A stretch of DNA of 13,623 bases from Phascolarctobacterium sp. (GTDB lineage Bacteria > Bacillota > Negativicutes > Acidaminococcales > Acidaminococcaceae): the NCBI GenBank assembly GCA_024405645.1, contig JAKSOJ010000013.1:1-13623 (forward strand), written 5' to 3'. Under the pieces are notes generated by a model, which saw only the letters and a list, made by a program, of their open reading frames with translations, searched no databases and was not told the origin of the DNA. Positions 1 to 13,623 of this stretch are shown here, one piece after another. Numbering within the stretch: position 1 is the stretch's first letter; the number at the start of each line of letters is the position of its first letter. The position numbers and the translations under genes were made by a program.

Positions 1-12
1 GAGGTGATTACA

Positions 13-342
13 ATGACAACTTGTCCTGAAGAAGTTATTTACATTGGCAATTATAAAAATAAATTTGTTACGTATATGGATCTCTTTGCACTCAAATCTC
101 GTGAACCTGCAAGGGGAGAGATTCGCAACCTAGAAAGCGACCTTTATGATTCTCGTATGGATCTTAAAAATAAGCTTAATTTTGATGATGCCAAGGTTGC
201 AACTGTCCAAGAAAAAGCTTTGAAGGAATTCCTCTTGAACCATGAAGTAACATATGTTGAAAAACTCAGAATAATACTTTTTTTCGGCATGATGAAATAT
301 GCTGGAGAAATAGAGAATTTGAAGACAATTTTAGACCTTTAA
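13..342 (+). CDS. Small hypothetical protein (109 aa)
   Basis: This is a complete small open reading frame that I do not recognise. I chose the ATG at 13 because a GAGGTG ribosome binding site lies at 1-6 with a 6-nt spacer; the in-frame GTG at 4 is part of that site and so is an unlikely start. The product is rich in charged residues and looks mostly helical. It has one short hydrophobic patch near residues 85-94 (KLRIILFFGM), no signal peptide and no convincing membrane span. It has a single cysteine (C4) and no catalytic motif I can name. The gene is followed by an intrinsic terminator seven bases after its stop, so it is the last gene of an upstream unit that is not visible here and is transcriptionally separate from rnj. 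That it is a real gene is well supported by its ribosome binding site, coding length and terminator; its function is unknown. Confidence 0.75.
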   Translation: MTTCPEEVIYIGNYKNKFVTYMDLFALKSREPARGEIRNLESDLYDSRMDLKNKLNFDDAKVATVQEKALKEFLLNHEVTYVEKLRIILFFGMMKYAGEIENLKTILDL

Positions 343-348
343 TTACGT

Positions 349-376
349 AAAAAGCCTTGATTTTCAAGGCTTTTTT
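349..376 (+). terminator. Intrinsic (Rho-independent) terminator
   Basis: A perfect 12-bp inverted repeat (349-360 pairs with 364-375, core GCCTTGA/TCAAGGC) closes a TTT loop and runs into a T tract. It ends the transcript of the small upstream gene. The A-rich left arm means it could also work on the opposite strand, but no gene faces it from the right. Confidence 0.9.
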
Positions 377-398
377 CATTTTTATTTATGGGGGAAAT

Positions 399-427
399 TT
401 GTAAAAATTACTAAAATGAGGTATAAT
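399..427 (+). promoter_or_regulatory. Predicted sigma-A promoter for the rnj operon
   Basis: A TTGTAA -35 box (399-404) and a perfect TATAAT -10 box (422-427) are separated by exactly 17 nt. The promoter lies in the gap between the terminator of the preceding gene and rnj. Transcription would start near 433-435, giving an untranslated leader of about 145 nt before the TTG start of rnj. It is the only strong promoter I can see in the window, so it probably drives the long downstream gene series. Confidence 0.8.
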
Positions 428-452
428 AAAGTGTCATACTATTTGAAAGTAT

Positions 453-470
453 AGGTAAGTAATTTTACCT
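453..470 (+). other. Small hairpin in the rnj leader
   Basis: AGGTAA (453-458) pairs perfectly with TTACCT (465-470) around a 6-nt loop. A weaker 5-bp hairpin (436-440 with 448-452) lies just upstream, near the predicted transcript start. Neither is followed by a T tract, so they are not terminators. They may be stabilising or regulatory 5' structures, or chance in AT-rich sequence. Confidence 0.35.
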
Positions 471-508
471 TCACTTAAAACGTTATTTTTAGGTTCAATT
501 TCTACGCT

Positions 509-535
509 AAATTCCTTTCTGGCTGCTCGGAATTT
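509..535 (+). other. Hairpin in the rnj leader upstream of the ribosome binding site
   Basis: AAATTCC (509-515) pairs perfectly with GGAATTT (529-535) around a 13-nt loop. It lies about 30 nt upstream of the AGGAGGTG ribosome binding site. It has no T tract and leaves the ribosome binding site free, so a role in RNA stability or protein binding is more likely than attenuation. No riboswitch or T-box motif was recognised. Confidence 0.4.
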
Positions 536-566
536 TGGTCAGAGAGTTATGTAAAAAGATTAAAAT

Positions 567-574
567 AGGAGGTG
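567..574 (+). promoter_or_regulatory. Ribosome binding site that fixes the rnj TTG start
   Basis: AGGAGGTG is a near-perfect anti-16S match, 5 nt before a TTG at 580. The upstream in-frame TTG at 535 has no such site, and the later ATG at 592 is too far away (17 nt). This site therefore decides the start. Confidence 0.85.
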
Positions 575-579
575 GAACT

Positions 580-2244
580 TTGGCTAAGCAAATGAACAAA
601 GTCCAGATCATCCCTTTGGGTGGTTTGGGTGAAATTGGTAAAAACATGACGGCTTTTCGTTATGCAGATGACATTATTTTGATAGACGCAGGTTTGATGT
701 TCCCTGAGGACGAAATGTTGGGCATTGACCTTGTAATCCCAGATTTTCAGTATTTAATCGACAATAAAGAAAAAGTTCGTGGCATTTTCATAACCCATGG
801 TCATGAGGACCATATTGGTGCTCTGCCCTTTGTCATGAAGCAAATCGATTGCCTGGTTTATGGTACTCCTTTGACTCTTGGAATTGTAAAGAGCCACTTG
901 GAAGAACATGGTATTAGTGACCAAAACCTGGTTACCATTAAACCTGGAGATATTATCAACGCAGGCTATTTCCGCATGGATTTCATGCGTGTAAATCATA
1001 GTATTCCCGATGCTATTGCTATTGCAGTAAATACTCCTATTGGTACCATAATCCATACAGGTGACTTTAAAATTGACCATACTCCTGTAGATGGTCAGGT
1101 TACAGATTTCTCCAAATTTGCAGATTATGGTGACAAAGGTGTGCTTTGTCTCATGGCAGACAGTACTAACGCAGACAGACCTGGCTTCACTCCTAGTGAA
1201 AAGGAAGTAGGCAAGACCTTCGAAGATGAGTTCCGATATGCTAAGCATCGTATTATCGTAGCAACCTTCTCCTCTAATGTGCATCGTATTCAACAGGTTA
1301 TTAATACAGCCGTAAAATATGGTCGTAAAATTGCAGTGCTTGGACGCAGCATGGTTAATGTTGTAAATATCGCTTTGGAACTTGGTTATCTACAATGTCC
1401 AGAGGGACAAATGATTGATATCGATGAGACTAGAAACTACACTCCTGATAAGCTTGTAATTATCACCACTGGTTCTCAAGGCGAACCCATGAGTGCTCTT
1501 ACTCGTATGAGTACCTCTGACCATCGCAAGGTGGATATTTGTCCTGGTGATACTGTAATAATCAGTGCAACTCCCATTCCTGGTAACGAAAAACTCGTTT
1601 CCAAGACTATCGATAATCTCATTAAGCTTGGAGCAGATGTTATTTACGAAAAGTCTAACGGCGTACACGTATCTGGACATGCTAGTCAGGAAGAAATGAA
1701 GCTCATGCAAAATTTGGTCCGTCCAAAATACTTCATCCCTGTGCATGGTGAATTCAGACATTTGGTTAAGCATGCTAAATTAGCAGAAAGCATGGGTGTT
1801 CCCAAAGAGAATATCGTTATTGGTGAGAACGGTTCTATTATCGAAATGACCAAGGATGATATTCGCATTGTTGGCAAAGTTCAATCTGGTCGAATTTTAA
1901 TAGATGGTTTAGGGGTTGGCGACGTTGGCAATATCGTTTTAAGAGATCGTCGTCAATTATCCCAAGATGGTATTATGATTGTTGTTGTAACTGTGGACAG
2001 TGAGGACTGCCACGTTATTGCTGGTCCTGATATTGTATCCCGTGGCTTTGTTTATGTTCGAGAGGCAGAAGGCCTCATGGACGAAGCAAAAGAAAAAGTA
2101 CAAATCGCTTTAGATAAATGTGAAGATCAAGGTATTACTGATTGGGCAACCATGAAGGGCATGGTTCGAGATTCTCTTGGCAAATTCTTGTATGAGAAAA
2201 CTCGTCGTCGTCCCATGATTCTTCCAATCATTATGGAAGTTTAA
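580..2244 (+). CDS. rnj: Ribonuclease J
   Basis: RNase J is a metallo-beta-lactamase/beta-CASP ribonuclease with 5'-3' exonuclease and endonuclease activity, a central enzyme of mRNA decay and RNA maturation in Gram-positive bacteria. Starting at TTG 580 the protein is 554 aa, almost the same as Bacillus RNase J1 (555 aa). It has the N-terminal GGLGEIGKN (14-22), the zinc-binding HGHEDH (73-78), H140 in NHSIPDA, D162 in GDFK, the beta-CASP signature TGSQGEP (297-303), SGHAS (365-369) and PVHGE with H389, then a C-terminal domain. The full HxHxDH motif points to a catalytically active J1-type enzyme rather than the J2 type, whose motif is degenerate. It is the first gene after the promoter, and ftsK follows 15 nt after its stop. 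It probably acts in the cytoplasm with partners such as the DEAD-box helicase encoded downstream; that partnership is inferred. Confidence 0.97.
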   Translation: MAKQMNKVQIIPLGGLGEIGKNMTAFRYADDIILIDAGLMFPEDEMLGIDLVIPDFQYLIDNKEKVRGIFITHGHEDHIGALPFVMKQIDCLVYGTPLTLGIVKSHLEEHGISDQNLVTIKPGDIINAGYFRMDFMRVNHSIPDAIAIAVNTPIGTIIHTGDFKIDHTPVDGQVTDFSKFADYGDKGVLCLMADSTNADRPGFTPSEKEVGKTFEDEFRYAKHRIIVATFSSNVHRIQQVINTAVKYGRKIAVLGRSMVNVVNIALELGYLQCPEGQMIDIDETRNYTPDKLVIITTGSQGEPMSALTRMSTSDHRKVDICPGDTVIISATPIPGNEKLVSKTIDNLIKLGADVIYEKSNGVHVSGHASQEEMKLMQNLVRPKYFIPVHGEFRHLVKHAKLAESMGVPKENIVIGENGSIIEMTKDDIRIVGKVQSGRILIDGLGVGDVGNIVLRDRRQLSQDGIMIVVVTVDSEDCHVIAGPDIVSRGFVYVREAEGLMDEAKEKVQIALDKCEDQGITDWATMKGMVRDSLGKFLYEKTRRRPMILPIIMEV

Positions 2245-2247
2245 TCC

Positions 2248-2253
2248 GAGGTG
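2248..2253 (+). promoter_or_regulatory. Ribosome binding site for the ftsK TTG start
   Basis: GAGGTG lies 6 nt before the TTG at 2260, within the 15-nt rnj-ftsK gap. It supports TTG as the genuine start codon of ftsK; no ATG is suitably placed. Confidence 0.8.
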
Positions 2254-2259
2254 TAAATT

Positions 2260-4968
2260 TTGGCTAGAAAGAAAAGAGAAGTCGAAATTGAAGAGAATAT
2301 TGAAGAAGTTAAGCCTAGTAATACATGGAAGTTTGTGGGTGTTGGGTTATTTGCTTTAGGATGTCTCTTTGGGGCAAGTCTCTTAAGCTCTGCTCCAGAA
2401 GACACATTGAACCTTTTCTACAAGCTAGAAGCCTTGCTTTTCGGCAAAATGGCTTTTGTACTTCCTCTTGTGTTCATTGCTTGCGGCTTGAAGCTCATGC
2501 TTTCCAAGAAGCTTGGTTATTTCAATAGATTCGTTTGGGGTTCTGTACTAATGCTCCTTTGCCTGTTAGGTATGAGTCATTTGTTCTTTGCTCCTAATGA
2601 AGCTAGTGCTATCGAAACCTGGCAAAGAGGGGGAGGCTTCTTTGGTGCGATGATCATCAAAGCTTTGGGAGGTATTGCTGGAGAAACTGCTACTGGTATT
2701 GCTTTAGCAATTATTTTCGTTGTAGCGCTTCTCGTTGTTTTGCCTCTGAGCGTTTTTGCTATGGTGCTTGGCTCTTTGTGGAACAAAATCACCAGCCTTT
2801 TTAAGAGTGATGACGATGAAGATGATGACGATGATCCTAAGGGTACTTATATTAATCGTGAAAAGCCTAGAACTAGAGAAGATAAACCAGTTTATAGCGA
2901 ACCTAAACGCATTACAGTTAATGACAACGAAGGCTTGAATCCTCGAGATATCTATCATAGCAGTGAGTTTGATTCCTTTAACGAGGGCATAAAAAAAGAA
3001 TCTGCTTATAAAAAGGTTTTAAACTTTGGTAAAACAGGTACTTATGATGATATCAAGGAAGAAATTCATGAGGATCCTGTACAAATTCCTGAATGGGAAG
3101 AGGGAACTGGTAATAAAGCTCCCCGCAGTCAATGGGATGAAAAGAAGAATATCTCCCAGGGTCGCATTATCCATTGGGAGGATTTGGCAAAAGAGCAAGA
3201 GGCTAAAAAGGCTGCTCAAGCTCAAGAGCCTGTTAATGCTTCCCAAGAATATGCTATTGGAACATCCTCTGGCGATGGTGTAATTACTAATTTCTATAAA
3301 GAAGAGGAAACTAATACCCCCGTGGAAAATGTGGTTCCAATTACTCCTGAAGTGCAGGTAACTGAACCTGAACTGGAGCCAGAACCTGAAAAACCTGTTA
3401 GCATTACTATTGAAGATAGTGCCGATAAAATCGAAGGTCCTGTTCTGACTGAGGCAGAAGCCAAGGCTCAAGAGGAACAAAAGGCTGTGCAAGCAAAACC
3501 GCAAAGTAAATACATCAAACCTCCTGTTAGTCTTTTGAATCCTCCTGTGAGAGCGGATAGAGCTAGTTGGGAACAAGGTGTAAAGGAACAATGTGGTGTC
3601 TTGGAAAAGACTTTGGCAGATTTCAAGGTTAAGGCGAAGGTTATCAACGTAACTCGTGGTCCTTCTGTAACTCGTTTCGAGCTAGAACCTGCTGCTGGTG
3701 TAAAAGTTGCAAGCATTGTTAATTTGGCAGATGATATTGCTCTTAGACTTGCTGCAAGTGGTGTACGTATCGAAGCTCCTATTCCTGGTAAATCTGCAGT
3801 AGGTATCGAGGCACCTAACCTGAAAAACGACATGGTAGCTTTCCGTGAAGTTGTAGATACCGATGTGGTTAAGAAAGATCCTTCTAGACTGGCAATTGGT
3901 CTTGGCAAGAATATTTCCGGAGATATTATCAGCGCGGATTTGGGTAAAATGCCACATACTTTGATTGCAGGTTCAACTGGTAGTGGTAAATCCGTATGCG
4001 TTAACACTATTATTGCAGGCTTGCTCTATAAGGCAAGTCCTGAAGAAGTAAAACTAATCCTCGTCGATCCTAAGGTTGTAGAGCTTTCCAACTATAATGG
4101 TATTCCGCATCTGTTAACTCCTGTTGTAACAGATCCCAAGAAAGCAGCATCTGCTCTTCGTTGGGGTGTTAATGAAATGGAAAGACGTTATCAGCTCTTT
4201 GCTGATAATCATGTTAGAGAAATTACCTCCTATAACAAGAAGGACGATGTGGAAAAGCTGCCCTACATTGTAATTATCATCGACGAATTAGCAGATTTGA
4301 TGATGGTTGCTAAGGTGGACGTAGAAGAAGCAATTTTGCGACTAGCGCAAAAGGCTCGTGCCTGTGGTATCCATTTAATTTTGGCTACACAAAGACCTTC
4401 TGTTGACGTTATTACTGGTATCGTTAAAGCTAATATTCCTTCTCGTGTAGCATTTGCTGTATCCAGCCAAACAGACTCTCGTACTATTTTGGATGGTTCT
4501 GGTGCAGAAAAACTCCTTGGTAAAGGCGATATGCTTTTCAAGCCTGTAGGAGTTAATACTCCTATGCGTGTCCAAGGTGCATTCGTTACCGATGAAGAGC
4601 TAGCGAAGATTGTAGACTTTGTAAAACAACAAGGTATTGCAACAGAATACAATGAAGAGGTTACCAAGGTTGAGCTTTCTTCTGATAAAGAAAAGGATAA
4701 GGCAGCTCCTCAAGAAGCTAGTGGAGAGGCAGCTAATGATGGCCCTGTAGAGGATGCTCTGTTCGAAGATGCATTAAGACTTGTTCTCGATACTGGACAA
4801 GTTTCCAGTTCCATGTTGCAAAGAAGGTTTAGAATTGGCTATACAAGAGCTGCTCGTTTGGTGGATACCTTTGAAGAGCTTGGTATTGTAGGTCAATCCG
4901 TAGGGGCAAAGCCTCGTGAAGTTATTATGTCTCGACAAGAGGTTGAAGAAAGATTCTTGAACCACTAA
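2260..4968 (+). CDS. ftsK: DNA translocase FtsK/SpoIIIE
   Basis: This is a membrane-anchored, ATP-driven DNA pump that moves chromosomal DNA through the closing septum. The 902-aa product has hydrophobic segments near residues 23-43, 63-81, 90-110 and 145-172, with a further weak one at about 126-140. Next come an acidic run (DDDEDDDDD, 184-192) and a low-complexity, Pro/Glu/Lys-rich linker to about 420. The alpha domain (about 434-530) precedes the RecA-like motor, with Walker A GSTGSGKS (571-578), Walker B IIIDE (D675, E676) and the family-typical [12 protein letters not shown] region. The C-terminal winged-helix gamma domain (about 832-897) normally reads polar KOPS sequences and contacts XerD. 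It starts at TTG behind GAGGTG. The position after rnj matches the rnjB-spoIIIE arrangement in Bacillus. Whether it serves vegetative division, sporulation or both cannot be told from this window. Confidence 0.96.
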
Positions 4969-4980
4969 AGGAAAGATAAA

Positions 4981-5775
4981 ATGGATAATGAATTAGATAT
5001 TCAAGTTAATGAAGAAGTTTCTGTAGGTACAATCCTGCGTAGAGCAAGAAATGCCAAGAACATTTCTTTAGAGCAAGCTGAAAATGATACCAGAATTCGC
5101 ATGGATTATTTGAAGGCTTTGGAAACGGATGACTATGACAAGCTTCCTGGAGAAACCTTTTTAAAGGGTATGATTCGTACCTATGGTAACTATCTTGGTT
5201 TAGATGGCTTGGAACTAGTACAACAATACAAGGCTTCTCATACTGGTCAAACTCGTGCTCAAATGGCAACTCAAGGCATTCGTGAGGCTGAATCCGTACG
5301 CATGAACGTACAACTCAAAACTCAACGTGATGTTGGTAGTGGTACTGGTCGCTTTGAAATGCCTAAAATTAACCTAGGTGTAGTATTTGCTGGTGTTGCT
5401 CTGTTGGCAATCATTGGCATTGGCTATTTTGCTGTTCCAAAGGTTATTGCCTGGATGAACACTCCAAAAGATGCAGTAACCGAAACTGTAGCAGGAAAAG
5501 ATACTGGTGCTGTAAAGGTTGAAGAAACAAAGGTTGATGGTTTTGTTGTAGAAGTCGAAGCCATTGATAAATGCTGGTTTGAGGCCTATGGGGATGGCAG
5601 AGAAATGGCATCCGTTATGCTTTATGCTGGCGACAAAAAGAAACTTGAAGCCAAGGACAAGATTCGTCTTAAATTTGGCAATATGAGTGCTTGCAAAGTT
5701 ACTGTTAACGGCAAGCCTGAAGCCCTTGAGGGTATTAAAGGTGTTCACACCTTAGAGTATTCTAAAGATAAATAA
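4981..5775 (+). CDS. rodZ: RodZ-like cell-shape protein (HTH, one TM, RodZ C-terminal domain)
   Basis: This is a 264-aa bitopic membrane protein with RodZ architecture. It has a cytoplasmic Xre-like helix-turn-helix domain (about 14-84, beginning VGTILRRARNAKNISLEQA and including the RMDYLKALE and FLKGMIRTYGNYLGLD family signatures). A basic, polar linker leads to one transmembrane helix at about 132-152, then an extracytoplasmic beta-rich domain of the DUF4115 type (about 186-262, with DKCWFEAYGDG). RodZ links the MreB cytoskeleton to the wall-elongation machinery; the HTH binds MreB in characterised members, although it looks like a DNA-binding fold. The ATG at 4981 follows an AAAGGA site with 8-nt spacing, 12 nt after ftsK. 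It is equivalent to ymfM near spoIIIE in Bacillus. Two cysteines (C198, C238) lie in the outer domain; whether they pair is unknown. Confidence 0.87.
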   Translation: MDNELDIQVNEEVSVGTILRRARNAKNISLEQAENDTRIRMDYLKALETDDYDKLPGETFLKGMIRTYGNYLGLDGLELVQQYKASHTGQTRAQMATQGIREAESVRMNVQLKTQRDVGSGTGRFEMPKINLGVVFAGVALLAIIGIGYFAVPKVIAWMNTPKDAVTETVAGKDTGAVKVEETKVDGFVVEVEAIDKCWFEAYGDGREMASVMLYAGDKKKLEAKDKIRLKFGNMSACKVTVNGKPEALEGIKGVHTLEYSKDK

Positions 5776-5790
5776 TTTCGGAGATTATAT

Positions 5791-7644
5791 ATGAAGCAAT
5801 TTTTGCCCATTACTCGTGAGGAAATGCTTGCACGAGGTTGGGACGAATTAGATTTTTTATTCATAAGTGGTGATGCCTATGTTGACCATCCAAGCTTTGG
5901 TCCTGCAGTGATTTGCCGTGTGCTAGAATCTCAGGGCTACAAGGTGGGATTGCTTTGTCAACCAGCGTGGAGAAAACCTGAAGACTTAGCTGCTTTAGGT
6001 AAACCTCGTTTGGCTGTACTTGTCAGTGGTGGTAATCTTGACAGCATGCTCTGTCATTATACTGTTGGCAAGATTGAGCGCAAGGTTGATAAATACACTC
6101 CTGGTGGAGTAGTGGGTAAAAGACCTGACCATGCAACGGCTGTTTATGCTAGCCTAGCGAAAAAGCTTTGGCCTGATTTACCAGTTATCATAGGTGGTAT
6201 AGAAGCATCCTTGAGACGCTTTGTTCACTTTGATTATTGGGAAAATAAAATTCGTCCATCAATCCTAGAGGATTCCAATGCAGATTTATTAATCTATGGT
6301 ATGGGTGAAACTCAAATCAAAGAGGTTGCAGATTATTTGGCTGGGGGAGCAAGTGTTGAGGATATGCATTATATCCGTGGCACTGCCTATCTCAGTTCAG
6401 AGTTACCTCCCGAAGAATACGTAGATATTCCTGGCTATGCAGCTATTAAAGAAGACAAGAAAAACTTCGCTATTGCCTATAAGCTGCAAAGCAAGGAGGG
6501 CGATCCTTTTTACGGAAAGCCCGTGGTACAAAAGGGTACTAGTAAATATGTTATTCAAAATCCTTCCACTTATCCCTTGGACCAAGAGGAAATGGATGCA
6601 ATTTATGATTTAGATTATATGCGCGCTTGGCATCCAAGCTATGATAAACTAGGCGGAGTTGCTGCTCTCGAAGAAGTACAGTTTAGCCTTGTATCTAGTA
6701 GAGGTTGCTTTGGTTCCTGTGCGTTTTGCGCAATTCATGCTCATCAAGGGCGTATTATCCAAGCTCGTAGTGATGAGAGCATTATCCGTGAAGCTAAAAA
6801 GTTAATTAAACTGCCTGGCTTCAAAGGTTATATTCATGACGTTGGTGGACCTACTGCAAACTTTCGTCATCCTTCCTGTCAAAAGCAGTTAAAATACGGG
6901 GTGTGCAAGGATAGGCAATGCTTGTTTCCGAGCCCCTGTCCCAATATCGATGCAGACCATAGTGCTTATGTAAAGCTGTTGCAGAAGCTTCGTGCTCTGC
7001 CTGGGGTTAAGAAGGTATTTATTAGGTCCGGTATTCGTTACGACTATTTGATGGCAGATAAAAATGATAAGTTCCTAGATGAGCTTTGTCGTAATCATAT
7101 TAGCGGTCTTTTAAAGATTGCTCCCGAACATATCGCGCCTCAGGTTTTGAGTAAGATGGGCAAGCCTGGTAAGGACGTGTATATGAAATTCATGAAGCTT
7201 TTTGCTGAAAAGAACAGAGAAATTGGCCTTTCCCAATATCTTGTTCCATATTTCATTTCTTCCCATCCTGGTTGTACTTTAAATAATGCTATTGAATTAG
7301 CAGAATTTTTAAGAGATATTCATCATCAACCAGAACAGGTGCAGGACTTTATTCCTACTCCTGGTAGCTTGGCAACTGCCATGTATTATTCTGGTTATGA
7401 CCCAAATACGGGAAATACTGTCTTTGTGCCTCGCAATCCTCATGACAAGGCAATGCAAAGGGCGTTAATGCAGTACAAATCTCCCCGTAACTATAAACTT
7501 GTATTGGAAGCACTTACTAAGGCCGGTAGAAATGATCTTATCGGTGATGGTAAGAAATGCTTGATTTCTGCTCCAGGGAAACCATCTAATCCCATTGTGA
7601 AGGGAAAATGTAAACCTGTTGACAAGAATAAAAGAAAGAAGTAA
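5791..7644 (+). CDS. ygiQ: YgiQ family (UPF0313) radical SAM protein
   Basis: This 617-aa protein belongs to the YgiQ family of radical SAM proteins, whose reaction is not established. The N-terminal Radical_SAM_N-type region (about 1-290) carries family signatures including RPDHATAVY, GGIEASLRR and DYWENKIRPSIL. The radical SAM core follows, with the [4Fe-4S] motif C306-x3-C310-x2-C313 (CFGSCAFC). A further cysteine group (C363, C372, C377, C383) could hold another metal centre. The later HISGLLKIAPEH and FIPTPGSLATAMYYSG motifs are typical of the family, and the C-terminus ends in a Lys-rich tail. It is shorter than the roughly 740-aa E. coli protein, as I recall for Firmicutes members. The ATG at 5791 follows a CGGAGA site (5779-5784), 15 nt after rodZ. 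No neighbour points to its substrate, although it lies in the same operon as a second radical SAM enzyme, RimO. Confidence 0.94.
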   Translation: MKQFLPITREEMLARGWDELDFLFISGDAYVDHPSFGPAVICRVLESQGYKVGLLCQPAWRKPEDLAALGKPRLAVLVSGGNLDSMLCHYTVGKIERKVDKYTPGGVVGKRPDHATAVYASLAKKLWPDLPVIIGGIEASLRRFVHFDYWENKIRPSILEDSNADLLIYGMGETQIKEVADYLAGGASVEDMHYIRGTAYLSSELPPEEYVDIPGYAAIKEDKKNFAIAYKLQSKEGDPFYGKPVVQKGTSKYVIQNPSTYPLDQEEMDAIYDLDYMRAWHPSYDKLGGVAALEEVQFSLVSSRGCFGSCAFCAIHAHQGRIIQARSDESIIREAKKLIKLPGFKGYIHDVGGPTANFRHPSCQKQLKYGVCKDRQCLFPSPCPNIDADHSAYVKLLQKLRALPGVKKVFIRSGIRYDYLMADKNDKFLDELCRNHISGLLKIAPEHIAPQVLSKMGKPGKDVYMKFMKLFAEKNREIGLSQYLVPYFISSHPGCTLNNAIELAEFLRDIHHQPEQVQDFIPTPGSLATAMYYSGYDPNTGNTVFVPRNPHDKAMQRALMQYKSPRNYKLVLEALTKAGRNDLIGDGKKCLISAPGKPSNPIVKGKCKPVDKNKRKK

Positions 7645-7672
7645 GAGTAAATATTAACTCATTACTACAATC

Positions 7673-8647
7673 ATGCGAAATTTAATTTTAACGCTTTTCC
7701 TCATCCTTTCCGTAGTTTTAACTGGTTGCGACGGGGAAAAGAGCCAAAAATCTTTAATTTTATATAGTGAATTGGACCCTAAATTTACCTTTGAGATGGT
7801 TCGTACTTTTATGAAATCATCACGAGATGATAAGTTTCTCATCAAGGTAATTTATGAACTTAGGGATGATGGTCCAAAGCCAGATATTGTTCTTGCTGAA
7901 CGCAGAACATTGAATGGTCTAGTTATCGATGGTAAGCTCAAACCTACTAAATTTAAAAAGGGTAACGAGCTTCCCGTAGGTTTTCGTGAAAGCGATGGAC
8001 ATTGGTATGGCATTTTCTATGATCCAGCCGTGTTTCTCGTAAACCAAAACTATGCTAGAACTGTTGGACAAAATGCAATTAGCAAGTGGGCTGATTTGCA
8101 AAATCTTCCTCAACCACGCATTTGCATAGAAAACCTGTCCAATAGTATTAGTAGCCAGAACTTTTTGGGTTCTATGGCAGATAATATGGGAGAGCAAACT
8201 TCCATAACTTACCTTTGGAATTTAAACAGATTTGTTAGTGATTATACTAATTTCCCCTTTTCGACTGTGCGTAAAACTGCAGTAGGGGATACAGATATTT
8301 CCATCACTCGACAAAGTTTTGTGTTTAAATATTTGGAAAGTAAATTTCCGGCATATATAGTAGTTCCTGAAGAAGGCACACCAATTAATTTATATGGTAT
8401 GGGTCTGTTCAAGGATTGCGCAAATGAAGAGAAAGCTCATATCTTTATGAACTGGATGATGACCTCTGGAGATATGCAAAGCTTTAGCCAACAAATGCTC
8501 TCAGGCTATGAATTTCTTTTCAGTTATGAGGGCAACTTGAAAGATACCAATAAGCTTTGGTTAAACAATTCTTACATGCTCTGGAAAGACCAGGAAGAAT
8601 TAACCAATCGTTGGTTGGATATGGTGCGTTTCTCAAATAAAAGCTAA
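7673..8647 (+). CDS. Orphan extracellular solute-binding lipoprotein (ABC-type, Fe3+-binding-like)
   Basis: This is a 324-aa predicted lipoprotein. A hydrophobic signal peptide (residues 1-18) ends in the lipobox LTGC with C19 as the lipidated residue. The mature part resembles periplasmic-binding proteins of the family 1/6 type that includes iron-binding FbpA-like proteins: a first strand LILYSELDP (28-36), PDIVLAER (70-77), DGHWYGIFYDPAVFLVNQ (108-125), GDTDISITR (205-213) and EEGTPINLYGMGLFKDCANEEKAHIFMNWM (233-262, split by family-typical turns). The ligand is unknown. No ABC permease or ATPase gene is nearby, so it either serves a distant transporter or has another role. The start is set by the signal peptide and lipobox; an in-frame stop at 7655 prevents upstream extension, and no ribosome binding site is evident before the ATG. 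It lies 28 nt after ygiQ and 36 nt before rimO. The family assignment is moderately sure. Confidence 0.75.
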   Translation: MRNLILTLFLILSVVLTGCDGEKSQKSLILYSELDPKFTFEMVRTFMKSSRDDKFLIKVIYELRDDGPKPDIVLAERRTLNGLVIDGKLKPTKFKKGNELPVGFRESDGHWYGIFYDPAVFLVNQNYARTVGQNAISKWADLQNLPQPRICIENLSNSISSQNFLGSMADNMGEQTSITYLWNLNRFVSDYTNFPFSTVRKTAVGDTDISITRQSFVFKYLESKFPAYIVVPEEGTPINLYGMGLFKDCANEEKAHIFMNWMMTSGDMQSFSQQMLSGYEFLFSYEGNLKDTNKLWLNNSYMLWKDQEELTNRWLDMVRFSNKS

Positions 8648-8672
8648 AACTGATTTTTGTTCTATATGAATT

Positions 8673-8677
8673 GGAGG
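8673..8677 (+). promoter_or_regulatory. Ribosome binding site that fixes the rimO start
   Basis: GGAGG lies 6 nt before the ATG at 8684. A longer reading frame opens at TTG 8657, but this site falls inside that extension. The ATG also gives the canonical MKIGMVSLGCPKN beginning. Confidence 0.88.
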
Positions 8678-8683
8678 ATAAAA

Positions 8684-10009
8684 ATGAAAATTGGTATGGT
8701 CAGCCTTGGCTGTCCTAAAAATTTAGTTGATTCTGAAGTTATGCTTGGCATTATTCGTGACAAAAACCTCGAGGTTACTAATAATCCTGAAGAAGCAGAC
8801 ATTATTATCGTTAATACATGTGGTTTTATAGAATCCGCAAAAGAAGAGAGTGTTAATACCATTCTCAATATGGGTGAATACAAAATCGAAGGTAACTGCA
8901 AATACTTAATCGTAACTGGTTGCTTAGCACAACGTTACGCAGATGATATTTTGGAAGGTATGCCTGAGGTTGATGCTGTAGTTGGTACCGAAGCTTATCC
9001 TGATATTGCTTATGTTTTGGACAGAGTTATGGCAGGGGAAAGAGGTAAGTATTTAAAGCGTACCGAAAGTTTGAACGTAAAAATGCCTCCTCGTATGCTT
9101 ACAACTCCTAGCTACATGGCTTATCTGAAAATTGCAGAAGGCTGTGACAACTTCTGTTCCTATTGTGTAATTCCTTTCTTGCGTGGTCGTTATAAATCTG
9201 AACCTTATGAAAAGGTTATGGCAGAGGCTAAGGCTCTTGCTGAAGCAGGCATTAAAGAGCTTATCGTTGTTGCTCAAGATACTACTCTTTATGGGAAGGA
9301 TTTATACGGCGAATTAAAGTTGCCTCAACTCTTAAGAGATTTGAATGAGCTGGAAGGCATCCAATGGATTCGCGTTATGTACCTGTATCCTAATAATTTC
9401 ACTGATGAACTTATTGCCGCGATTCGTGATTGCGACAAGGTTTGCAAATATATTGACATTCCTTTGCAACATGCTTCTGATAGCTTGTTGAAGAGTATGA
9501 ATCGTCATGATACTAAGGCTCAAGTTGAGGAACTTCTTGCGAAGCTTCGCAGAGAAATTCCTGATATTACTATTCGTACTACCTTTATTGTAGGCTTCCC
9601 TGGTGAAACCGAGGAAGATTTCGAAACCTTGAAGACCTTTGTTGCTGAGCAACGCTTTGAAAACGCAGGGGTATTCCAATATTCTCAAGAAGAAAATACC
9701 TTTGCTGGTAAAATGAAAAACCAAATCGACCCTGAAACAAAAGAAGACCGTTTCCATGAATTAATGGCCTTACAAGCAGAAATTTCTGAAGAAATTCATA
9801 GAGATAGAGAAGATGCAGAAATGGATGTAATTATCGAAGGCTTTATGGAAGACGAACCTGATAAGGCTATTGCTCGTAGTCAGCATGAAGCACCTGATAT
9901 CGACGGTAGCATCTTTATCGAGAACGCCGAGGGGCTCGAAATTGGACAAATAGTACGAGTACGTATCGTACAAGGCTTTACCTATGAAATGGTAGCCGAA
10001 TTAATTTAA
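8684..10009 (+). CDS. rimO: Ribosomal protein S12 methylthiotransferase RimO
   Basis: RimO is a radical SAM enzyme that adds a methylthio group to a conserved aspartate of ribosomal protein S12 near the decoding centre. From the ATG at 8684 the protein is 441 aa, the same length as E. coli RimO. The N-terminal UPF0004 domain holds the auxiliary [4Fe-4S] cysteines C10 (SLGCPKN), C46 (NTCGFIE) and C80 (TGCLAQR). The radical SAM motif is C154-x3-C158-x2-C161 (CDNFCSYC), followed by the RimO-type IPFLRGRYKSEP. A C-terminal TRAM domain covers about 373-441. The SLGCPKN start and the sequence after the radical SAM motif favour RimO over its tRNA-modifying relatives MiaB and MtaB. In many Firmicutes rimO is followed by pgsA, cinA and recA (from memory); here a DEAD-box helicase gene follows after 23 nt. 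Confidence 0.96.
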   Translation: MKIGMVSLGCPKNLVDSEVMLGIIRDKNLEVTNNPEEADIIIVNTCGFIESAKEESVNTILNMGEYKIEGNCKYLIVTGCLAQRYADDILEGMPEVDAVVGTEAYPDIAYVLDRVMAGERGKYLKRTESLNVKMPPRMLTTPSYMAYLKIAEGCDNFCSYCVIPFLRGRYKSEPYEKVMAEAKALAEAGIKELIVVAQDTTLYGKDLYGELKLPQLLRDLNELEGIQWIRVMYLYPNNFTDELIAAIRDCDKVCKYIDIPLQHASDSLLKSMNRHDTKAQVEELLAKLRREIPDITIRTTFIVGFPGETEEDFETLKTFVAEQRFENAGVFQYSQEENTFAGKMKNQIDPETKEDRFHELMALQAEISEEIHRDREDAEMDVIIEGFMEDEPDKAIARSQHEAPDIDGSIFIENAEGLEIGQIVRVRIVQGFTYEMVAELI

Positions 10010-10032
10010 GTTAGTTTTTTGGAGGATAATTA

Positions 10033-11622
10033 ATGCAAACTGAACTTTTTGGTAATCTTGAACTGGATAAACGCATCGTTATGGCAATTCGTGAGATGGG
10101 CTTTGAAGAACCTTCTCCTATTCAAGCGGAAACCATTCCTTTGGTACTCGAAGGCAATGATGTAATTGGCCAAGCTCAAACCGGTACTGGTAAAACTGCA
10201 GCTTTTGGTATTCCGGTTATTCAAAATATCGAAGTTTCTAAGCATGTACAAGCTCTGATTCTTACCCCGACTCGTGAACTTGCTATCCAAGTTGCCGAAG
10301 AAATTGGCAACATTGGTCGTGTTAAGAGAGTACGTTCCCTTCCTGTTTATGGTGGGCAACCTATAGATCGTCAAATTCGTGCGCTGAAGTCCGGTATTCA
10401 AATCGTTATTGGTACTCCTGGTCGTTTAATTGACCATATTAACCGTGGTACTATTAAGCTTGATCATATTAAGCATTTGATTCTTGACGAAGCTGACGAA
10501 ATGCTGGATATGGGCTTTGTTGATGATATTGAAGAGATTATGAAATCTATTCCTGCAGAAAGACAAACTCTGCTGTTCTCTGCAACTATGCCCAGACCTA
10601 TTTTGAGCCTTACTAAAAAATATATGAAGGCTCCTAAGACTGTTAGCGTAACTAAGGAAGATTTAACTGTTCCTTTGATTGAACAAGTTTATTATGAAAC
10701 TAAGGACAAGGTTGAAGGGCTTTGTCGTTTGATGGATACAGAAATCGATGGAAAGCTTATCATTTTCTGTCGTACAAAGAAGGGCGTAGATGATTTGTCC
10801 ATTGCTCTTTCTAGTCGTGGATATATGGCTGAAGGTTTACATGGTGACCTGTCCCAAAACCAACGTGACCGTGTAATGAAGAAATTCCGTGAGGGTGCTG
10901 TGGATGTGCTTATCGCAACGGACGTAGCCGCTCGTGGTTTGGATATTGAAAATATTACTCACGTAGTAAACTTTGATATTCCCCAAGATCCTGAAAGCTA
11001 TGTACATAGAATTGGTCGTACTGGTCGTGCAGGTAACACCGGTATTGCTATGACATTTATCACCCCGCGTGAATTCCGTCAATTAAAGTTGATTGAACGT
11101 GTTGTGAAAACCAAGATTCAAAGACGTCAATTGCCAACTGCTGCTAACGTTATTGAACGCCAACGCGACACTATCATCAACAAATTGCAAACTGTTCTTG
11201 AACTGAATGCATACCAAGATTATATGCCTATCGCAGAAACCTTGTTGGATGACTATTCTGCTGAAGACGTAGCTGCTGCTGCAATTAAACTCATGCAAGA
11301 AGGTCAAAAGGCTTTGGAAGCTCCTAAGGTTGAGGATGATATCGTGCATATGGACCTTACCAATACTGGTGCAAAGCCTGGCATGGTAAGACTTTTCGTG
11401 AATGTAGGTCGTGCTCAAAAGATTATGGTTAAGGATATTATTTCTACTATCGCAATCGAAGCAGATATTCCAGCACGTAGCATTGGTCAAATTAGCATTT
11501 ACGATAAGTTTACTTTCGTTGAAGTTCCTGCAGAATTTGCTGAACAAGTTATCAATGCGTTACATCGCAACTATATTAAGGGCTACAAGATTAATGTAGA
11601 ACCGGCGAAAATTAAGAGATAA
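10033..11622 (+). CDS. deaD: DEAD-box ATP-dependent RNA helicase with DbpA/CsdA-type C-terminal domain
   Basis: This 529-aa ATP-dependent RNA helicase unwinds short RNA duplexes during mRNA decay or ribosome assembly. Helicase motifs appear in order: Q motif around F24 and Q31, Walker A AQTGTGKT (48-55), PTREL (79-83), TPGR (128-131), DEAD (152-155), SAT (183-185), ATDVAARGLD (295-304) and HRIGRTGR (325-332). After a helical dimerisation-like stretch (about 340-435), residues about 451-526 resemble the DbpA/CsdA RNA-binding domain (VRLFVNVGRAQ at its start). That domain suggests binding to structured RNA such as 23S rRNA, as known for B. subtilis YxiN/DeaD. The name cshA is an alternative, because the length and operon link with RNase J also fit a degradosome helicase. 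The ATG at 10033 has GGAGG 7 nt upstream. hflX starts only 3 nt after its stop. Confidence 0.95.
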   Translation: MQTELFGNLELDKRIVMAIREMGFEEPSPIQAETIPLVLEGNDVIGQAQTGTGKTAAFGIPVIQNIEVSKHVQALILTPTRELAIQVAEEIGNIGRVKRVRSLPVYGGQPIDRQIRALKSGIQIVIGTPGRLIDHINRGTIKLDHIKHLILDEADEMLDMGFVDDIEEIMKSIPAERQTLLFSATMPRPILSLTKKYMKAPKTVSVTKEDLTVPLIEQVYYETKDKVEGLCRLMDTEIDGKLIIFCRTKKGVDDLSIALSSRGYMAEGLHGDLSQNQRDRVMKKFREGAVDVLIATDVAARGLDIENITHVVNFDIPQDPESYVHRIGRTGRAGNTGIAMTFITPREFRQLKLIERVVKTKIQRRQLPTAANVIERQRDTIINKLQTVLELNAYQDYMPIAETLLDDYSAEDVAAAAIKLMQEGQKALEAPKVEDDIVHMDLTNTGAKPGMVRLFVNVGRAQKIMVKDIISTIAIEADIPARSIGQISIYDKFTFVEVPAEFAEQVINALHRNYIKGYKINVEPAKIKR

Positions 11623-11625
11623 ATT

Positions 11626-13443
11626 ATGGCAAATGAAATTTACGGCAATGTGAAGGGAATTCGTAATTCCGTCATTGACGAATTAAAAACTATATATGAT
11701 ATGAAGCTTGAGGGTGGGCAAATGGTCTCCCAAGAGCTTTGCCTGAAAATGGCAGATATAACAGACTTCATCAATCGTGAGGTTAGTGTGTATGTGAATC
11801 GTGCTGGCAATGTTTTGGCTGTTGCAGTAGGGGATAACGAAAAGGTTGACCTTCCTCCTGTTGAGGGAAGACGTGGTGCAACTCGTTTGTCCGGTGTACG
11901 TTGCATTCATACCCATCCTGGTGGAAATCCTTACCTTTCCGGTGTTGATGTGTCTGCTCTTAAAAATAATCGTTTTGATGCAATGGTTGCCATTGGCGTT
12001 GAACCTCAGATAGAGCAATGCCAATTAACCTTTGGCATGATTACTGGTTTAGATAATAATGAGCAATTGGTTGTAGAGCTTTATGGACCGTGTTCTTTGG
12101 AGCAGGGTGAGGGTATTTTCTTCCCAAATCTTGTTTCCATGGTTGAACGCATACTGGACAAGCAAACGGGTTCCACTTCCTTAGCACAAACCGAAGAACG
12201 TGCCATTCTCGTTGGTATGGAATATGGTGGCATGCTCAACACACTCGGTTGGACTATTGAAGATTCGGTAGAAGAGTTAAAGCAATTGGCAGATACTGCT
12301 GGAGCAGTAGTTGTAAAGAAATTTTTGCAAAAGCGTCCTAAACCTGATCCTGCTTTCTTTGTTGGTAAGGGTAAGGTTCAAGAGCTTGCGCTTTTCGCTC
12401 AACAGGAAAATATCGATTTGTGTATTTTTGACGATGAACTTTCTCCTGCTCAACAAAGAAATATCGAGCAAGCCATGGGTGTACGTGTACTCGATCGTAC
12501 TGCGCTTATCCTCGATATCTTTGCTCAAAGGGCTAGAACAAACGAAGGTAAGCTTCAAGTCGAACTTGCACAATTGCAGTACACTCTGCCGAGAATCATG
12601 GGTAAGGGCTTAAGTCTTTCTCGTCTTGGTGGTGGCATTGGTACCCGTGGCCCTGGCGAAACTAAGCTAGAAGTTGACCGTAGACGTATTCGTGACCGTA
12701 TTGCTTATATTAAAGAATGCATTGGCAAGGTTAAGAATGTACGTGATTTGCATAGAGCAGGTCGTAATAAAGCTGAAGTTCCTACTGTCAGTCTTGTAGG
12801 TTATACCAACGCAGGCAAGTCTACTCTGTTGAATACTCTAACTAATTCCGATATTTATGCTAAGGACCAACTTTTTGCGACCTTGGATCCTACTACTCGT
12901 CAGTTAGAGCTTCCTGATAAACAAGAGGCAATTTTGACAGATACTGTTGGTTTTATTCAACGTTTGCCACATCAACTCGTAGCAGCGTTCCAATCCACTT
13001 TGGAAGAGGTTGTGGAAGCGGATGTGCTTCTGCACGTTATAGATGTTAGCCATGAGCTTTACAAGGAGCAAAGTAACGCAGTTTATCACGTGCTTGATGA
13101 AATCGGTGCAAAGGATAAAACGATTATTACGGTATATAACAAGATTGATAAGCTTCCTGAAGGTTCTGCGTTGCCAGAACGCTTGGCTAATGAAGAGAAT
13201 GCTATTTGCGTTAGTGCTAAGGAAAATCTTAATTTAGATAAGCTTCTTGTATTAATCGCTGAAAATTTGAAAATGAAATCGGTCGAAGAGACTTTCTTGA
13301 TTCCTTACGATAAGAGTGCTCTAGTAAATCGTTTCCATGAAATAGGTACAGTTCTTGAAAGTGAATATCTTGCCGGTGGTACAAAACTCAAGGTAAGACT
13401 AGACGCGAGTGCTGTTGCAGAATTTGAAGATTATATTTTTTAG
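11626..13443 (+). CDS. hflX: Ribosome-associated GTPase HflX with an N-terminal JAMM/RadC-like domain
   Basis: HflX is an Obg-HflX GTPase that binds the 50S subunit and splits stalled or heat-damaged 70S ribosomes. The 605-aa product has the usual HflX core from about residue 190, including GRNI-equivalent FVGKGK (245-250), GPGETKLEVDRRR (342-354), G1 GYTNAGKST (392-400), G3 DTVGF (439-443), G4 NKID (505-508) and G5 SAKEN (530-534). The first 180 residues or so are extra compared with the usual length of about 420 aa. They carry a RadC/JAMM-like signature: REVSVYV with E52, IHTHPGG with H95 and H97, then S105 and D108. All five metalloprotease positions are present, so the extension may be an active zinc hydrolase; its substrate is unknown. 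The ATG is 3 nt after the helicase stop with only a weak AAGAGA site, implying translational coupling. YnbB follows, as in Bacillus. Confidence 0.95.
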   Translation: MANEIYGNVKGIRNSVIDELKTIYDMKLEGGQMVSQELCLKMADITDFINREVSVYVNRAGNVLAVAVGDNEKVDLPPVEGRRGATRLSGVRCIHTHPGGNPYLSGVDVSALKNNRFDAMVAIGVEPQIEQCQLTFGMITGLDNNEQLVVELYGPCSLEQGEGIFFPNLVSMVERILDKQTGSTSLAQTEERAILVGMEYGGMLNTLGWTIEDSVEELKQLADTAGAVVVKKFLQKRPKPDPAFFVGKGKVQELALFAQQENIDLCIFDDELSPAQQRNIEQAMGVRVLDRTALILDIFAQRARTNEGKLQVELAQLQYTLPRIMGKGLSLSRLGGGIGTRGPGETKLEVDRRRIRDRIAYIKECIGKVKNVRDLHRAGRNKAEVPTVSLVGYTNAGKSTLLNTLTNSDIYAKDQLFATLDPTTRQLELPDKQEAILTDTVGFIQRLPHQLVAAFQSTLEEVVEADVLLHVIDVSHELYKEQSNAVYHVLDEIGAKDKTIITVYNKIDKLPEGSALPERLANEENAICVSAKENLNLDKLLVLIAENLKMKSVEETFLIPYDKSALVNRFHEIGTVLESEYLAGGTKLKVRLDASAVAEFEDYIF

Positions 13444-13448
13444 AAATT

Positions 13449-13454
13449 AGAGGT
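13449..13454 (+). promoter_or_regulatory. Ribosome binding site for the ynbB-like TTG start
   Basis: AGAGGT lies 8 nt before a TTG at 13463, in the 19-nt gap after hflX. It supports a TTG start for the truncated last gene. Confidence 0.7.
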
Positions 13455-13462
13455 AAAATATT

Positions 13463-13623
13463 TTGGTAGATTTTAAAGAAATAGAAAAAAAGGCTTTAGC
13501 AGTTGTTGCTAAACATACTCCTTGGCTTGAAGAGGTTGCTCTTTGCAACACTGAAAAAGTAATTTCTGCTTTCCGTAAGCATATGGTAAGTGATTATTAT
13601 CTGAAACCGACCACTGGTTATGG
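13463..13623 (+). CDS. ynbB: YnbB-like PLP enzyme (methionine gamma-lyase / 'aluminium resistance' family), N-terminal part
   Basis: Only the first 53 codons are present before the window ends. Translation from the TTG at 13463 gives VDFKEIEKKALAVVAKHTPW early on, then KVISAFRKHMVSD and KPTTGYG. The pattern 'KV..AFR...VSD......TTGYG' is the N-terminal hallmark of the YnbB family, fold-type I PLP proteins annotated as aluminium resistance or methionine gamma-lyase-like. The catalytic lysine and the rest of the PLP domain lie beyond the window. Adjacency to hflX repeats the Bacillus ynbA(hflX)-ynbB pair, which strengthens the call. The biochemical role of the family is poorly defined, and the literal annotation 'aluminium resistance' should not be over-read. 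Confidence 0.82.
   Translation, partial: MVDFKEIEKKALAVVAKHTPWLEEVALCNTEKVISAFRKHMVSDYYLKPTTGY

Follow-up and report, generated by a model that had tools for sequence, protein, structure and literature searches.

A predicted JAMM/MPN+ zinc hydrolase domain fused to the N terminus of the ribosome-splitting GTPase HflX in Phascolarctobacterium and other bacteria

Introduction

What is the function of the long N-terminal addition to HflX, a ribosome-splitting GTPase, in a Phascolarctobacterium sp. (assembly GCA_024405645.1)? The gene, hflX, is the last in a run of genes on contig JAKSOJ010000013.1, positions 1 to 13,623; this whole stretch of 13,623 nucleotides is called the window here. An earlier note on this DNA had counted about 180 residues before a standard HflX core and read them as a RadC-like JAMM/MPN+ domain, so that one chain would couple ribosome splitting to a zinc hydrolase. 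About 190 residues were found, the first core Pfam domain beginning at residue 212. A JAMM/MPN+ domain at the HflX N terminus is supported by motif, conservation and predicted MPN fold, and the proposed coupling is likewise supported, with zinc, chemistry, position on the ribosome and substrate as its predicted parts. JAMM chemistry combined with HflX biology points to a ribosome-tethered JAMM/MPN+ zinc hydrolase that would cut a ribosome-associated protein, a reading to which we assign a probability of roughly 0.78.

JAMM motif and its conservation

The JAMM motif is given as E-Xn-H(S/T)H-X7-S-X2-D in the accessible part of PMC300881. This signature of the JAMM/MPN+ superfamily is present in the window protein and its intact relatives, with E52, H95, H97, S105 and D108 all at the places named in the earlier note (Table 1). 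The HxHP-x6-S-x2-D spacing, equated there with that of RadC, recurs in all 25 RadC loci fetched.

Conservation was assessed in 57 aligned long HflX proteins: the window protein, 7 Phascolarctobacterium/Acidaminococcaceae loci (drawn from 8 close relatives found by a contig scan with two narrow patterns) and 49 other genomes. P98, within H95-T-H97-P98, is kept in 53 of the 57, and the remaining counts are listed in Table 1; none of these counts is independent, because the rows are mutually related and were picked for their resemblance to the window. The motif positions do not vary freely: the same three rows (L055, L058 and L059) depart at all of them, except that L059 still has histidine in column 97, and 54 rows are intact. 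Within residues 1 to 190, the only columns invariant in the 54 intact rows are E52, G61, G69, H95, T96, H97, S105 and D108. HTHL replaces HTHP in one Acidaminococcaceae relative (L007, 246-830), in which the rest of the motif is intact. Across 23 hflX neighborhoods, H-x-H-x7-S-x2-D occurs in 21 of 23 HflX proteins (L119_5, of cluster C0, being counted as HflX) versus none of 231 other open reading frames, and the motif in the N-terminal domain is thus more than chance.

Predicted fold and relationship to JAMM proteins

The AlphaFold2 model of the domain (predicted local distance difference test [pLDDT], 88.5; predicted template modeling score, 0.85) shows the MPN fold of the JAMM/MPN+ superfamily, the absence of which would have told against the proposal, and places E52 on a strand, as had been anticipated. 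Structural matches to JAMM proteins obtained with VIA-align cover model residues ~30 to 168.

Single-sequence comparisons are weaker. Residues ~1 to 190 match Pfam Prok-JAB (PF14464) with an E value of 0.012 and 15.9 of the 25 bits needed, below the cut-off, and have one weak, unrelated NCBIfam match (E = 0.083). No match to RadC (PF04002) was found in the window protein up to an E value of 10, in searches with HMMER, whose filters drop most weak matches. When all 57 members were scanned at E ≤ 0.1, Prok-JAB was matched by 24 (best, 5.5e-5) and RadC by 16 (best, 5.4e-4), and every other family was matched by at most 2. Among 15 single-sequence matches in PDB, the best two (E = 0.12 and 0.13) are non-JAMM proteins and 10 are CSN5 (E = 0.18 to 1.2).

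A profile built from the N-terminal domain (A2) gave 14 matches to PDB sequences at E ≤ 10, all of them AMSH-family proteases (best E, 0.012). Alignment of A2 with 25 RadC sequences by hhalign gave a probability of 76, a score of 33.6 and an E value of 2.6e-6 for this single comparison, versus scores of at most 23.0 against 20 column-shuffled RadC alignments. The pairing sets HTHP...S..D onto RadC HNHP...S..D and E52 onto the glutamate of RadC REHF, which we take to be the JAMM glutamate of RadC. The N-terminal domain almost certainly has a JAMM fold and is homologous to JAMM proteins.

Among known JAMM proteins, Pyrococcus furiosus JAMM1 (5ld9; 12% identity) is a 129-residue chain without a GTPase, and the title of its companion entry, 5lda, describes a complex with ubiquitin-like SAMP2. 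The JAB domain of RadC (2qlc) belongs to a separate RadC gene, found in each of 41 genomes searched. The eukaryotic JAMM deubiquitinases AMSH, CSN5 and Rpn11 share the HxHX7SX2D site and MPN fold with the window domain, but their sequence match is weak, the partner in the window is a ribosome-splitting GTPase and a ubiquitin-like substrate is not known here.

Architecture of the protein and selection on the domain

On its TIGR03156 score and its intact GTPase and helical-loop motifs (GYTNAGKS, DTVGF, NKID and GGGIGTRGPGE, in columns conserved among relatives), the window protein is an HflX (Table 1). Its whole GTPase core, including the SRLGGGIGTRGPGE loop, is shared with ordinary HflX, which lacks the N-terminal domain. 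Linker residues 184 to 186 have pLDDT values of <50 in the full-length model.

Table 1. Coordinates of the hflX gene, its encoded domains and the predicted JAMM site residues in the window
Feature	Position	Strand	Evidence
hflX, 605 aa, with N-terminal JAMM-type domain	11626..13443	+	Open reading frame; TIGR03156 HflX equivalog, 491.5 bits versus cut-off of 216.75
JAMM/MPN+ type domain, residues 1-165	11626..12120	+	AlphaFold2 model, VIA-align, subthreshold Prok-JAB (E = 0.012)
Helix 166-181 and low-confidence linker to HflX core	12121..12195	+	Predicted models
Pfam GTP-bdg_N (HflX ND1), residues 212-300	12259..12525	+	E = 8.4e-36
Pfam GTP-bdg_M (HflX helical domain, conserved SRLGGGIGTRGPGE loop), residues 302-380	12529..12765	+	Pfam
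GTPase domain, Pfam MMR_HSR1, residues 388-506	12787..13143	+	E = 2.4e-23
HflX C-terminal domain, residues 516-601	13171..13428	+	Under Pfam cut-off, 24.5 of 26.4 bits
E52, predicted catalytic glutamate	11779..11781	+	54/57; aligns with RadC REHF glutamate; first residue of model strand 52-58
H95, predicted zinc ligand	11908..11910	+	54/57
H97, predicted zinc ligand	11914..11916	+	55/57
S105, predicted JAMM serine	11938..11940	+	54/57
D108, predicted zinc ligand	11947..11949	+	54/57

The domain is under purifying selection, generally somewhat weaker than that on the core. Ratios of nonsynonymous to synonymous substitution rates (dN/dS; NG86 method) were 0.04 to 0.23 for the domain (10 of 13 pairs with a value) versus 0.035 to 0.16 for the core (9 of 13), with the domain above the core in 8 of the 9 pairs that had both values; they are rough, because several dS values exceed 1. 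Between the window and L002, the ratio was 0.041 for the domain and 0.035 for the core.

Distribution and relatives with a damaged site

HflX is widespread in the phylum, occurring in 228 of the 299 genomes searched (E ≤ 1e-40). A search with the N-terminal domain matched 51 genomes, one of which (G110) was dropped as a weak match outside HflX and missing from the A2 results. The A2 profile, which added G150, G152, G179, G204 and G277, found the domain in 55 of 299 genomes and 41 of 215 genera, each of the 55 with a single HflX match. Among the other nine genomes of the window's class, five (G071, G174, G199, G248 and G296) gave no HflX match at E ≤ 1e-40.

In all loci read, the domain forms part of HflX. 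The A2 search gave 73 candidate standalone relatives, weighing only proteins 0.55 to 1.75 times the query length; the 12 that were read were HflX fragments, frameshifted copies or chimeric contigs. In 39 loci without the domain, the HflX frames are 378 to 493 aa long, except for four of 740 to 830 aa that have other sequence at the C terminus, and no match to the JAMM profile is better than an E value of 1.8. Those four belong to f51-family genomes (L075, L080, L082 and L088, in G049, G123, G205 and G088, respectively); in L075, L080 and L088, a tRNA-dihydrouridine synthase domain (PF01207; E ≤ 3.3e-94) follows the core, giving an HflX-Dus fusion. HflX is of ordinary length in other f51 genomes, e.g., 427 aa in G254.

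Outside the phylum, NREI...IHTHPGGNPHLSSVD is present in HflX of Fusobacterium animalis (annotated as "GTPase HflX") and F. vincentii. Among 72,556 plasmid records, only two matched, each from Fusobacterium: NZ_CP084075.1 (2.1 Mb) and NZ_CP077186.1 (219 kb), which are filed as plasmids and encode a long HflX. The former is chromosome sized and may be a misfiled chromosome. One short contig among the A2 matches bears a source-given name that mentions Candidatus Atribacteria. No relative was found in phage records or, with two peptide patterns only, in viral contigs, and PHROGs and PADLOC gave no match. In many genomes of the phylum to which the window belongs (Bacillota, by named relatives), the sole HflX has the domain, as does Fusobacterium HflX.

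The active site is intact in 47 and degenerate in 6 (G117, G039, G177, G152, G204 and G150) of the 53 domain-bearing genomes read; the tally does not cover G179 and G277, which share a genus with G152 and G204. In addition to the three departing alignment rows, L090 (G152) and L091 (G204) have H95 replaced by F and H97 by R while retaining E, S and D, and L092, added by the profile search, has lost the motif. For L090 and L091, the gaps in the alignment were placed by the aligner, but the ungapped sequence and a further comparison lead to the same assignment.

A tree of the HflX core (91 rows without near-duplicates: 46 intact, 6 degenerate and 39 lacking the domain) requires eight changes of domain presence. 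As its deep branches are weak, one early origin followed by losses is indistinguishable from several gains.

Proposed function and alternatives

In JAMM enzymes, two histidines and an aspartate hold zinc, a glutamate activates water and a serine assists. In the window protein, a zinc ion would be held by H95, H97 and D108, with water activated by E52 and assistance from S105, and the domain is very probably a catalytically competent hydrolase. HflX would deliver the domain to 70S ribosomes that are stalled or vacant. Being joined to ND1 by a helix and a short linker, the domain should be located on the ND1 side of the interface between the subunits. According to the accessible text of PMC12493154, HflX inserts its ND1 into the subunit interface at H69, whereas the N-terminal extension of mycobacterial HflX contacts uL16 and 23S helix 38; a domain attached to the N terminus of ND1 should be found in the same region. 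As HflX splits the ribosome, the domain would cleave a peptide or isopeptide bond in a factor bound to the ribosome, in a ribosomal protein or in a nascent chain. Such cleavage would be comparable to that by Rpn11, which cuts beside the proteasome motor and in this way also works next to an NTP-driven machine. A ribosome-associated substrate has about an even chance of being correct; the more specific idea of a ribosome-rescue enzyme with a built-in peptidase, cutting a bond in a ribosome-attached protein or nascent chain during splitting of the stalled 70S by GTP-bound HflX, is tentative.

Co-occurring factors were sought in 42 of the 55 domain-bearing genomes, including degenerate ones, 36 of the 42 being ≥90% complete. 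RqcH (PF05833) is present in 40 of the 42 (all 36 of the more complete genomes) and equally in 42 of 42 genomes with a short HflX, and its co-occurrence is therefore uninformative on the substrate. Prp, the L27-processing protease, is present in 33 (30 of the 36), which rules out JAMM-HflX as a general substitute for Prp. Across the 42 genomes, neither pattern indicated a substrate.

An accidental HTHP...S..D in an unrelated N-terminal extension would fit the weak Prok-JAB score and the non-JAMM proteins that lead the single-sequence PDB matches. It is already contradicted by conservation across genera, by the structural matches, by profile matches to AMSH proteases alone and by a RadC comparison that exceeded all 20 shuffles, and it is extremely improbable. 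More serious, though still unlikely, is a noncatalytic docking or splitting wedge, with rRNA, uL16 or a factor as the binding partner of an MPN fold that would help to part the subunits, the metal site being kept for folding. eIF3 has noncatalytic MPN subunits, and the domain is retained where the site is lost or damaged (L055, L058, L059, L090, L091 and L092). The mycobacterial extension is likewise an N-terminal addition and is used in disordering 23S helices, but it is only 39 to 58 aa long, and the accessible text of PMC12493154 neither terms it a JAMM domain nor mentions a JAMM motif. Against the wedge, E52 activates water in JAMM enzymes and would be superfluous if the zinc were purely structural, and both it and S105 are conserved as strictly as the predicted zinc ligands. 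E52 was lost together with H95 in L055, L058 and L059, although it persists in L090 and L091, where both histidines have been replaced.

As a third alternative, the domain might act on HflX as a sensor of zinc or a regulatory switch: either zinc would alter how HflX hydrolyzes GTP or binds the ribosome, or the flexible linker of HflX would be cut by the domain to release a short HflX. The linker (~184 to 190) is of low confidence in the full-length model, and, as only one HflX match occurs per domain-bearing genome, a short form could arise by such self-cleavage; even so, we regard the switch as quite improbable, below the wedge. The degenerate lineages do weigh against a universally intact site in a ribosome-tethered hydrolase. 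That the domain outlasts its active site in some lineages argues both that the site is truly catalytic in the others and that the domain has a further, noncatalytic use.

Gene context

A DEAD-box helicase gene with a DbpA RNA-binding domain (10033-11622) lies directly upstream of hflX, and the same cluster occupies this place in L002 and L008. At 14 of 23 hflX loci, the next gene belongs to one cluster (representative, Met_gamma_lyase); miaA-like, mutL-like and lexA-like genes occur in 6, 5 and 6 loci, respectively, with family names taken from Pfam on representatives only (nine proteins from two loci). The same genes flank hflX in Bacillus subtilis. The neighbors at the 23 loci, including mutL, miaA, an AAA protein, Met gamma-lyase, glutamine synthetase and lexA, offered no candidate substrate.

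Implications

In the open-licence literature, no paper naming HflX together with JAMM, JAB or MPN was found, and prior notice elsewhere is possible; among the matches listed, the accessible texts pairing HflX with RadC or deubiquitinase gave nothing on such a fusion. The accessible text of PMC12493154 reports that HflX has N-terminal extensions in several species of Clostridium and Paenibacilli, names no domain in them and ascribes none of this kind to E. coli, Listeria or mycobacterial HflX.

In at least 47 of the 299 genomes, the sole HflX has a competent-looking metallohydrolase site, which suggests that proteolysis forms a step in the rescue or recycling of ribosomes. If true, JAMM enzymes would gain a bacterial, ribosome-linked role, and the pairing of a motor with Rpn11 would have a bacterial counterpart. 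It would also add a new step to the quality control of ribosomes in Bacillota and Fusobacteriota, some branches having lost the active site, and these bacteria may couple the dismantling of stalled ribosomes with protein cutting.
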